12,570 nt of DNA from NCBI GenBank assembly GCA_948469295.1, contig CAOKLK010000004.1, positions 1 to 12,570 on the forward strand, read 5' to 3'. The notes beneath the pieces are model-generated. The model ran no database searches, was not told where the DNA came from, and saw only the letters and a program-made list of their open reading frames with translations. Positions 2,665-10,409 of this stretch are shown here, piece by piece. The stretch is from an uncultured Mycoplasmatota bacterium. GTDB lineage: Bacteria; Bacillota_I; Bacilli_A; RF39; UBA660. The position numbers and the translations under genes are program-made. The first letter of the stretch is position 1, and every line of letters starts with the position of its first letter.

Positions 2665-2693
2665 TTTACAAGCACTTCGAAGTATGTTAAAAT
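2665..2693 (+). promoter_or_regulatory. Extended -10 promoter of the three-gene repeat operon
   Basis: TTTACA (2665-2670), a 17-base spacer and TAAAAT (2688-2693) with TG at 2685-2686. The in-frame ATG at 2684 lies inside this promoter, so it cannot be the start of the gene. Confidence 0.78.
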
Positions 2694-2719
2694 GTTCACA
2701 TAATAAAGGGAGTGACTAT

Positions 2720-3832
2720 ATGAAAACATTAACACCAGAGGTGAATGCGTTACTAGATAAGTTATATAATCTCCGCGGAGAAGATAGTGTTATCCTTGTC
2801 GAAATGGAAAAACAAAAAAGAGCATCAGAAGAAACTCGTGAAAGAACGACAGAACAAAAAAAAGATTTACAAAAAAAGATTTCTGAATTTGAAAAACTTC
2901 ATGAAGAATTAGATGAACAAGGAGAAAAACTAAAAGAAGTTCTATCAGGAATTCATCGAGAAGACTATAAAACAGTTTTAGATCGTTTAAGAATAGATTT
3001 TAATCCTACTGCATTAGTAGAAAAACTAGAACATTCTTTACCAAAAACAATCAATTCTGTAATTGAAGATACAAAAAAAGCAGAAGATGAATTAGTCAAA
3101 GTAGAAGAAGAAATGAATAATGCTATTACAACAATCGAAGAAGTTGGCATTAGAAAAGATGCAGCATTAGGAAATCAAGAAAAATTAAACGAATACTTTG
3201 AATTAGCTTTATCAGGAAGAATTAACATCACAAGAGATTCCATTACTTCATTACTAGAACAATTTAGTTTTACAGAAGAAGAACAAAGAGAAGCAGCAAA
3301 AATCTTAATGTTCCCAGAAGATGCCTTATTTACTTATGATGAAAAAATAAAATCAAAAGAAAAATCAGGAAAATCCATTGGAGAAGTTTTACAAGAAGCA
3401 AAAACAGCTAGCTTAGAAAAAGAAGAAATAATGGAAGAAAAAGAGGAAATCGTTGAAGAAAAAGTAATAGATCCAAAAGAAGAAGTAATTGAAACATTAA
3501 AAGAACAAGGAATAGATTACTTAGATTTCAAAGCAGATGAAATAGATGAACTAATTGCTAATTTCGAAAAAGAAACCATTGTAAAAAATATTAAATTTAT
3601 TAAAAACAAAGAAATAGGAATTGACATTTTCCACAGTAATATCAAATTAATTTACGATGGAGAATTAGAAGAAAAAATCACTATGCTAGAACAAACTGGA
3701 AAAACTTTAACAGATATCTACTTAAATCCAAACGTTTTAGTAAAATATAATAGACAAGGATTAGAAAATGCTATCGGAAGTATCAAAGCAAATGGTCTTG
3801 CTCCACAAGATGTTCCACTAATGGCTTATTAA
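2720..3832 (+). CDS. Large coiled-coil protein with C-terminal mTERF-like helical repeats
   Basis: The start is ATG 2720, behind AAAGGGAG (2705-2712) with 7-base spacing, giving 370 aa. No signal peptide or membrane segment is seen. Residues about 25-80 and 105-150 are highly charged coiled coils (for example KKISEFEKLHEELDEQGEKL). Residues about 165-215 are a helical segment (SGRINITRDSITSLLEQFSF), followed by an acidic linker rich in EEKEEIVEEK (about 232-255). From about 254 to the end come roughly 30-residue helical units: VIETLKEQGIDYLDFKADEI, KNIKFIKNKEIGIDIFHSNI, and LEEKITMLEQTGKTLTDIYL followed by NPNVLVK. This L-x-x-G/E-I/L ... D-I-F/Y ... NPxxL spacing recalls mTERF-type helical repeats, which bind nucleic acid in other proteins. 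That likeness is by eye and the function is unknown. It is the first gene of an operon; its stop overlaps the next gene's AAGGAGG. Confidence 0.83.
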   Translation: MKTLTPEVNALLDKLYNLRGEDSVILVEMEKQKRASEETRERTTEQKKDLQKKISEFEKLHEELDEQGEKLKEVLSGIHREDYKTVLDRLRIDFNPTALVEKLEHSLPKTINSVIEDTKKAEDELVKVEEEMNNAITTIEEVGIRKDAALGNQEKLNEYFELALSGRINITRDSITSLLEQFSFTEEEQREAAKILMFPEDALFTYDEKIKSKEKSGKSIGEVLQEAKTASLEKEEIMEEKEEIVEEKVIDPKEEVIETLKEQGIDYLDFKADEIDELIANFEKETIVKNIKFIKNKEIGIDIFHSNIKLIYDGELEEKITMLEQTGKTLTDIYLNPNVLVKYNRQGLENAIGSIKANGLAPQDVPLMAY

Positions 3833-3845
3833 GGAGGAATAAAAA

Positions 3846-4181
3846 ATGAATTTGAAACAATTAATGAACGATACTTTAGCAGCCAATAATGGTGACATAT
3901 CCAGAGGATTAAAAAATCAATTAACAATTTTAAATGCGTTTATCAAAGAAGATTTAGAAGAAAAAGTAAATATCTTAAAACAAAATGAAATACCAGTATA
4001 TAGTTATTATGGATTAAGAGTCTTAGAATTTAATTTAGAAGACATTCAAAATGTCATATCAGAAAATAATGCTAAATTAGACATCTATCGTTCCAATCCT
4101 CAAGAACTAGTAAAAGACATTAGACTAAAAGAAATTTCATCAGGAAAATACGTAACTCTAAATGGAATAGGAGGTATGTAA
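3846..4181 (+). CDS. Small helical-repeat protein, second gene of the repeat operon
   Basis: The start is ATG 3846, behind AAGGAGG (3832-3838) that overlaps the previous stop, so translation is probably coupled. The product has 111 aa and looks soluble and alpha-helical. The unit LEEKVNILKQNEIPVYSYYG followed by LRVLEF resembles LEEKITMLEQTGKTLTDIYL at the end of the upstream protein. A second unit, LEDIQNVISENNAKLDIYRS followed by NPQEL, has the same D-I-Y-x-x-NP pattern. It could therefore be a detached continuation of the same repeat array or a paralogue that pairs with it. The C-terminus, SSGKYVTLNGIGGM, is not repeat-like. I do not recognise a named family. The strong ribosome binding site indicates a real, well-translated gene. 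Confidence 0.8.
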   Translation: MNLKQLMNDTLAANNGDISRGLKNQLTILNAFIKEDLEEKVNILKQNEIPVYSYYGLRVLEFNLEDIQNVISENNAKLDIYRSNPQELVKDIRLKEISSGKYVTLNGIGGM

Positions 4182-4183
4182 GA

Positions 4184-4471
4184 ATGAAATTTTTAACGAA
4201 ATTAGATTTCACAGAAGACCAAATCAATTACTTAAATGAAAATGCATCTGGTGTCATGTTAGATTCTATTCATAAAAGTAGAAAATTAGTAGCGTCAAAT
4301 TTGAATTTCTTAATCGAATTAGGGGTGAAAAATTATCGAGATATCTTCTTAGAATACTATGATTTATTTTTATTAGACAATAGCAATTTTGTTGAAATAT
4401 TTAATAAATACGATCGAGAAGATCTTGTGGATAAATTAGAAAAAAATGTCGCAATTATAGAATATTTATAA
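4184..4471 (+). CDS. Small helical protein, third gene of the repeat operon
   Basis: The start is ATG 4184, two bases after the previous stop, with AGGAGG at 4169-4174 inside the upstream gene; this is a tightly coupled arrangement. The product has 95 aa and lacks a signal peptide or membrane segment. After a short N-terminal helix (DFTEDQINYLNENASGVMLD) it shows NLNFLIELGVKNYRDIFLEY and DLVDKLEKNVAIIEYL. The DIF and LEKNV..I..L elements match those in the two upstream proteins (DIF/DIY, LEEKI/LEEKV). It is followed at once by a terminator, so it closes the operon. The function is unknown; a complex with the other two proteins is a reasonable inference from coupling and shared repeats. Confidence 0.8.
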   Translation: MKFLTKLDFTEDQINYLNENASGVMLDSIHKSRKLVASNLNFLIELGVKNYRDIFLEYYDLFLLDNSNFVEIFNKYDREDLVDKLEKNVAIIEYL

Positions 4472-4473
4472 AG

Positions 4474-4496
4474 AAGTCTCAAAAAGAGATTTTTTT
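4474..4496 (+). terminator. Rho-independent terminator of the repeat operon
   Basis: AAGTCTC (4474-4480), loop AAAAA, GAGATTT (4486-4492) with one G-T pair, and a T-run 4490-4496, directly after the stop codon. Confidence 0.8.
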
Positions 4497-4537
4497 AATT
4501 CCCATAATAATTTTGTAAAAAATTTCAAAAATAGGAC

Positions 4538-10191: not shown

Positions 10192-10409
10192 TAAAACGCG
10201 TTGAAAATAAAAAGTAGGATAATAAAAAAGCTTAGAAAAGAGACGTAAGACTTAGGTGAAACTTACGAAGCCTTATTATCTGAAAAAAGATATGGGAGCG
10301 TTTCCGTCATTTCTACGTTACAGAAACAAAGAGCATGAAATACATGAACTAAGGTGGTACCGCGGATTATAAGCAAGAATTCGTCCTTTGGAGGATTCTT
10401 GCTTTTTTT
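10192..10409 (+). ncRNA. T-box riboswitch, lysine-type, controlling lysS
   Basis: The conserved T-box sequence AAGGTGGTACCGCGG lies at 10351-10365. Stem I can be drawn: AAACGC (10194-10199) with GCGTTT (10298-10303) at the base, the loop-E motif AGTA (10213-10216), GATAATAA (10218-10225) with TTATTATC (10273-10280), an AGAGA bulge region, and CGTAAG (10244-10249) with CTTACG (10262-10267) around a loop with GGTG (10255-10258). The specifier loop holds GAAAAAAG (10282-10289), whose AAA codon reads lysine. The antiterminator forms when CGTCCTT (10382-10388) pairs with AAGG and GCG of the T-box. The bulge TGGT would pair with the ACCA end of uncharged tRNA-Lys (discriminator A). This predicts read-through when lysyl-tRNA is uncharged, in line with the downstream lysS. 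The exact specifier register within the A-run is inferred. Confidence 0.93.
10371..10409 (+). terminator. T-box leader terminator
   Basis: AAGCAAGAAT (10371-10380) pairs perfectly with ATTCTTGCTT (10395-10404), with inner CC/GG pairing and a T-run 10403-10409. Its 5' arm overlaps sequence used in the alternative antiterminator, as expected for a T-box. Confidence 0.92.

Follow-up and report, generated by a model that had tools for sequence, protein, structure and literature searches.

The 12,570-nucleotide stretch analysed here, called the window, is one of the contigs in a draft genome of an uncultured Mycoplasmatota bacterium; the draft spans 0.94 Mb and is 78% complete. It features an operon of three genes, P1, P2 and P3, which encode proteins of 370, 111 and 95 amino acids and lie on the forward strand, only 13 and 2 bases apart. 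On sequence evidence, the operon divides over three genes one protein that relatives make as two chains or as one. We give a probability of about one half to the reading that the three products together make up a single soluble alpha-helical protein, most likely an acidic protein-binding scaffold. An earlier reading of the DNA letters, the first-pass annotation, had described three tightly coupled genes; its coordinates and gaps proved right, and Shine-Dalgarno-like sites are present. The features of the operon are as follows (pLDDT, predicted local distance difference test).

2665..2693, forward strand: sigma-70-like promoter, TTTACA-17-TAAAAT, with 10/12 matches and TG before the second hexamer
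2705..2712, forward strand: Shine-Dalgarno-like site of P1, AAAGGGAG, read from the sequence
2720..3832, forward strand: P1 gene, with a predicted coiled-coil hairpin, small helical domain, acidic linker and mTERF-like C-terminal domain
2789..3214, forward strand: P1 coiled-coil hairpin, residues 24-165, from the AlphaFold2 model
3227..3346, forward strand: strongly conserved block of P1 (ITRDSI...FPEDALF.YD), residues 170-209, from alignments and the model
3362..3472, forward strand: P1 acidic linker, residues 215-251, from charge and from a pLDDT below 50 for residues 215-249
3473..3829, forward strand: P1 C-terminal mTERF-like domain, residues 252-370, with the terminal conserved VPLMAY, from alignment, model and profiles
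3831..3837, forward strand: Shine-Dalgarno site of P2, AAGGAGG, read from the sequence
3846..4181, forward strand: P2 gene, the fast-evolving middle piece, its fold taken from the P2-P3 fusion of a relative
4169..4175, forward strand: Shine-Dalgarno site of P3, AGGAGGT, within the end of P2, read from the sequence
4184..4471, forward strand: P3 gene, the conserved mTERF-like end piece
4466..4500, forward strand: terminator-like hairpin with a U-run, folding energy -10.9 kcal/mol, z -4.93

The three genes keep their order outside their own genome. Among the best 80 of the 154 P1 relatives found in genome contigs, P3 lies downstream of P1 on the same strand, in the order P1-P2-P3, in 78 loci, and in the remaining two (L045 and L098) the contig edge falls in the middle gene. 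P2 and P3 are separate in 62 of the 78 loci, with gaps of -29 to +3 bases and a 4-base overlap as the commonest spacing (19/62), and P3 is 95 amino acids long in 57 of these 62. The other 16 loci feature P2 and P3 fused as one open reading frame (ORF). A different fusion was found in the distant loci L023 and L171-L175, in which P1 and a P2-like middle form one ORF of about 550-680 amino acids that is followed by P3; the middle of this type of fusion matches three long P2 groups at 94-99% and gives no match to the short P2 groups (0.7% and 10.1%). A third form is a single ORF of 529-688 amino acids with a C-terminal P3 domain (L180, L191 and L192; E 9e-22 to 1.6e-13). The P1 profile gives no direct match to these single chains. 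Alignment of L191 to the opening gene of L201, a two-gene locus, gave 40% over 464 columns (E 1.7e-96); that gene matches the P1 C-terminal domain (1.7e-8), and the single-chain middle matches the profile of this domain at 97.1% over 100 columns. The coiled-coil part of the single chains does not match the P1 coiled coil (5.1%). The single chains thus consist of a P1-like part and P3 with no space for P2, and the reading that single-chain relatives carry all three parts was rejected for this reason. Because P2 is fused to P3, P1 to a P2-like middle and a P1-like part to P3, the proteins appear to be pieces of one protein, and the proposal of one array split over several genes agrees with these fusions. 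Two-gene forms were also seen (L201, L202 and L204), in which an ORF of 418-452 amino acids lies directly before a 95-amino-acid P3 without P2; this first ORF is P1-like or of another coiled-coil-looking kind, and the P1 profile matches it in L201 and L204 only.

By these comparisons P2 is an optional, fast-changing middle. Clustering of 81 P2 sequences at strict settings gave 10 clusters (L021 and L099 are the same locus); clustering at loose settings merged 77 of the 81 sequences and was discarded. Two pairs of groups are related, with 97.0% for groups 2 and 3 and 87.6% for group 0 with group 4, to which the window's P2 belongs; no other pair exceeds 17.6%. The median identity over 146 pairs of loci, which were picked by a P1 identity of at least 0.75, is 0.82 for P1, 0.53 for P2 and 0.82 for P3, so that the centre appears to change far faster than the ends.

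The repeats of P3 and of the P1 C-terminal domain are probably distant relatives of the mTERF type, and profile comparison carries most of the evidence, with weaker support from Pfam and from predicted folds. Pfam and NCBIfam searches of P1, P2 and P3 gave no family match above cut-off, either to mTERF or to an unrelated known family, and Pfam mTERF has no match in the window's own genome. The Pfam mTERF family, PF02536, has a curated cut-off of 23.1 bits. The P3 family matches it more often than any other Pfam entry, in 11/35 members with E-values up to 10 (best 6.7e-5) and in 36/103 members of a larger set with E-values up to 1 (best 3.9e-5); the larger set comprises 103 of 108 sequences, with P0155, P0165, P0187, P0210 and P0229 left out for short or odd length. 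Ten P3 members scored singly reached at best 19.0 bits. P3 is the site of the mTERF match in genomes G013, G017, G026 and G114 (E 2.3e-5 to 6e-3, 15.0-22.3 bits), and no P3 family member whose bits were scored passes the cut-off. The trio is not classed as a member of the mTERF family because its proteins do not reach the curated cut-off. Comparison by hhalign with an alignment of eight true mTERF proteins from the same bacterial family gave 88.0% over 88 columns for P3 and 65.6% over 97 columns for the P1 C-terminal domain, and the best of 50 column shuffles reached 2.7% and 0.9%, respectively. The N-terminal part of P1 reached 0.2%. The P1 C-terminal domain and P3 match each other at 82.4% over 43 columns (best of 50 column shuffles 4.7%). 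In a control set of 31 windows of PcrA, LigA and the nucleotidyltransferase, the highest values were 11.7% for mTERF and 9.1% for the P1 C-terminal domain. Searches of PDB sequences with the family profiles gave best E-values of 0.12 and 0.31.

The predicted folds lend weaker support to this relation. The AlphaFold2 model of P1 features a coiled-coil hairpin, a disordered acidic linker and a helical C-terminal domain, as the long coiled coil and acidic linker described earlier would have it. By eye, the conserved block at residues 170-209, which has no tool match, resembles a UBA/RuvA-C-like three-helix domain. P2 and P3 were folded as the natural fusion of the relative L044, not as the window's own pair, and the model predicts one helical body with a pLDDT of 89.0 and a predicted template modelling score of 0.83, in line with the helical-repeat body that had been expected. 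In a Foldseek search with this model the first five PDB matches are MTERF1, with weak E-values. In the VIA comparison 13 of the first 14 rows are from MTERF1, MTERF3 or MTERF4 complexes, with middling Z, and rank 1 is a chain of the Tetrahymena mitoribosome. The matches from a fold search of the PDB with the P1 model are filled by its coiled coil.

Proteins of the mTERF family bind RNA or DNA in organelles. The main rival to a protein-binding scaffold is a nucleic-acid-binding complex, in which the mTERF-like solenoid groove holds RNA or DNA, for example ribosomal RNA (rRNA). The fold and profile relation to mTERF favours it. The titles of their PDB entries place MTERF1 on DNA and MTERF4 within a ribosome intermediate, and the part consulted of a report on the Tetrahymena mitoribosome describes an MTERF-family protein bound to rRNA (PMC7326499). 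Additionally, some loci have neighbours of nucleic-acid or translation function (pcrA in 18/78 and a cysS-like gene in 18/78). The charge of the trio points the other way. The isoelectric points (pI) of the window's P1, P2 and P3 are 4.70, 5.14 and 4.64; the net charge is 0 or less in 103/103 P3 members, negative for the P1 C-terminal domain in 70/70 rows (68 distinct) and negative in 62/64 P2 sequences (63 distinct), whereas the bacterial mTERF proteins are net positive in 8/8 cases, with a pI of 8.4-9.4. This difference favours a protein scaffold over nucleic-acid binding, and no nucleic-acid-binding domain was found above cut-off in Pfam or NCBIfam. The first-pass annotation had suggested possible nucleic-acid binding, which is now doubtful, and we regard it as unlikely.

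The proposal of an acidic scaffold built from mTERF-type repeats also has to meet several results that weigh against it. PcrA and LigA bind DNA, and both proteins are net negative in the window, so that charge alone does not exclude nucleic acids. One PcrA control window reached 46.6% against P3, although the next best reached 4.8%. Smaller alignments of the distant forms lose the mTERF signal (6.4% for the P1 C-terminal region of the fused form and 0.4% for the single-chain middle). The window-type P2 reaches only 1.0% against mTERF, 2.1% against the P1 C-terminal domain and 0.7% against P3 by hhalign. A related unit and mTERF-type repeats had been described for all three proteins; both hold by profile for the P1 C-terminal domain and P3, and neither holds for P2, so the candidate statement that P2 is mTERF-like was rejected. 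The words on which the common unit was based (LEEKITML, LEEKVNIL and LEKNVAII, with DIY or DIF and NPxxL) are present in the proteins. Shared LEEK words alone were rejected as proof of it, since the local alignments of the window proteins are weak or not significant (of 1000 shuffles, 33 reach the real score for the P1 C-terminal domain and P2, 183 for the P1 C-terminal domain and P3, and 353 for P2 and P3).

Some of these results feed a second alternative, that the likeness to mTERF is convergence and that the trio is an unrelated helical-repeat scaffold with a fitting repeat length. The weak Foldseek E-values, the middling Z, the failure of any observed member to rise above the Pfam cut-off, the lack of an mTERF match for P2 and for the single-chain middle, and the PcrA control window all agree with it. 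Against this, P3 and the P1 C-terminal domain stand far above the shuffles and all 31 control windows in their comparison with mTERF, the mTERF match falls on P3 in the four genomes named above, and true mTERF proteins are present in the same bacterial family, where PF02536 is found above cut-off in 8/98 genomes. In a sample of the phylum 1/344 genomes passes the cut-off, which is from the same family, and six others give weak matches below it. Convergence seems quite improbable.

Taken together, the acidic charge, the presence of a coiled coil, a middle that evolves fast and can be dispensed with, and the failure to recognise any catalytic or nucleic-acid domain lead us to infer a protein-binding scaffold. 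The repeats of P3 and of the P1 C-terminal domain would be of the mTERF type, P2 would form the variable middle and P3 would close the far end. The coiled-coil hairpin of P1, carried on a flexible acidic linker, probably serves to anchor the protein or to let it self-associate. Coupled translation would allow assembly of the pieces during synthesis, which fused relatives achieve in one chain, and the separate P1, P2 and P3 would bind each other. P1 and P3 would probably meet constant partners, and P2 would be a variable or loosely constrained centre. More tentatively, the bacterial family may carry a set of mTERF-type solenoids of which one branch has become an acidic scaffold that is freely split and fused, its centre lost, replaced or remade quickly.

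The trio stays together while its neighbourhood changes. Among the 78 loci, pcrA and a cysS-like gene are each the downstream neighbour in 18, with a sepF-like gene in nine, another gene in 29 and the contig end in four, so a constant neighbour that would name the function was rejected as a candidate. A divergent NMT1-type gene lies upstream in 35/78 loci. For pcrA and NMT1 the neighbours were tagged with profiles each built from one window protein; for sepF and cysS short words served as tags, combined for sepF with length. With Pfam, NMT1 was confirmed in three examples, and SepF, DivIVA, CysS and CdaA in a single example apiece. The sepF-like neighbours, and the locus L105 in which Pfam SepF (2.1e-28) is followed by DivIVA (5.3e-30), speak for a cell-division or chromosome-positioning scaffold, its coiled coil working with SepF- or DivIVA-type proteins. 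Against it, the other 69 loci have another downstream gene or a contig end, and beside the window's own trio no gene for division was recognised. This more specific role is decidedly unlikely.

P1 was found in 7/7 genomes of the genus that were searched, its own included. A search for relatives in 60 genomes at E up to 1e-3 found P1 in 11, P2 in 7, all of them within the genus, and P3 in 12; G006 is the sole genome of the genus without P3, and its contig stops at the P2 stop codon. Profile searches of the order found P1 in 78/288 genomes (15/102 genera) and P3 in 177/386 genomes (50/116 genera), and the matching genomes listed all belong to one bacterial family. In a class-wide sample P3 matched in 21/296 genomes, of which 20 are from the same family, and the exception is a partial P3 match in a 745-residue frame. 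The protein database gave 1927 matches to P1 among the 7994 candidates scored, which were those sharing most words, and 108 matches to P3; no Pfam domain was found on the 120 P1 matches listed (of 1927) or on the 108 P3 matches. The 80 contigs with P1 relatives are metagenome assemblies labelled Bacilli, Tenericutes, Erysipelotrichaceae, Mycoplasma or Bacillota, and once Candidatus Ventrenecus avicola; the taxonomy entry of Candidatus Ventrenecus places it only as Bacteria incertae sedis. Second, weak P3-like genes were seen in L043 and L042 (E 6.8e-4 and 9.8e-4), which are perhaps paralogous systems; by eye, one of them follows pnp and the other precedes pheS, and both have an unmatched ORF upstream. 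The small coupled genes, one of them fast-evolving, and a weak PHROG match of P2 (6e-4, function unknown) might hint at a module of defence, toxin-antitoxin, phage or mobile-element type, but this is barely credible. P1 occurs in 7/7 genomes of the genus and lies among housekeeping genes where neighbours are named. Phages gave no match to P3, plasmids none to P1 and viral contigs none to the P1 profile; a viral fold library gave a best E of 2.8, and the best PADLOC match had E 0.0061 (no toxin-antitoxin library was searched).

The start of P1 is backed by the majority start MKxLTP in the family alignments A1 and A3. One promoter and one terminator had been described for the operon, and this description holds in part: a promoter-like site and a hairpin are there, but such promoter sites are no commoner than in shuffles (11 in the region, 14.3 expected), which leaves the promoter call weak alone, and the hairpin at 4466-4500 is absent from the output of a terminator scan. 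Elsewhere in the window an NMT1-type binding-protein gene lies at 1032-1769 on the reverse strand; it has 245 codons, full-length relatives have mostly about 327-343, and it is apparently shortened. The adjoining ATPase and permease genes of its relatives are absent from the window. A 241-codon ORF at 1878-2603 on the forward strand lies between the NMT1 gene and P1, and in L014, L015, L018 and L019 P1 directly follows the NMT1 gene. A T-box leader upstream of lysS at 10192-10391 on the forward strand scores 92.2 bits (E 3.8e-21), narrowly below the gathering score of 93 that is the default threshold.

The true mTERF proteins of L152-L157, relatives from the window's family, match PF02536 with E-values down to 4.4e-24, and their genes lie by eye beside ordinary bacterial genes. 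For L153 the protein database yields 191 relatives, with PF02536 in all 120 listed. The mTERF protein at L155:1-777 on the reverse strand features near-regular repeats: compared with itself it has 59% equal residues when shifted by 35 and 62% when shifted by 70, a regularity reminiscent of transcription activator-like effector (TALE)-like proteins. A 582-residue ORF at L160:403-2148 is by eye a protein of another leucine-rich repeat, and its summed matches reach 40.3 bits, above the mTERF cut-off.

Prokaryotes have been described as lacking the mTERF fold; here a bacterial operon that is conserved and carries distant mTERF-type repeats occurs in a family that also has true mTERF proteins. In the parts consulted of the literature on mTERF in bacteria or prokaryotes no report of bacterial mTERF proteins was found; for the operon itself the literature was searched by organism terms only. 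These proteins raise the origin of the organelle mTERF fold as a question and offer simple bacterial versions of it. If the proposed scaffold is correct, the operon might encode a modular platform for binding, with conserved ends and a centre that can be exchanged. The repeated splitting and fusion of what is predicted to be one helical body, with a fast or missing centre, would be a clean natural case of the subdivision of a repeat protein.

Among known systems, TAL effectors appear to fit the trio more poorly than mTERF does, and their repeat code was not seen in it. The arrangement of P1 is common among coiled-coil hairpin proteins such as HP0958 of Helicobacter pylori and the arms of SMC and Rad50; P1 has no convincing sequence match in the PDB, and Pfam and NCBIfam recognised no ATPase domain in it. 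The true mTERF proteins of L152-L157 are single basic repeat proteins that by eye lack a coiled coil and an acidic linker, but they come from the same bacterial family and their repeats are related to those of P3 and the P1 C-terminal domain. The trio differs from the mTERF family at large (PF02536; MTERF1, MTERF3, MTERF4 and the plant mTERFs) in being bacterial, split over three genes, acidic, equipped with a coiled coil and an acidic linker, below the curated cut-off and, in P2, without a sequence match. It appears to resemble that family in its predicted helical repeats of about 30 residues, by profile in P3 and the P1 C-terminal domain and by predicted fold in the P2-P3 model.
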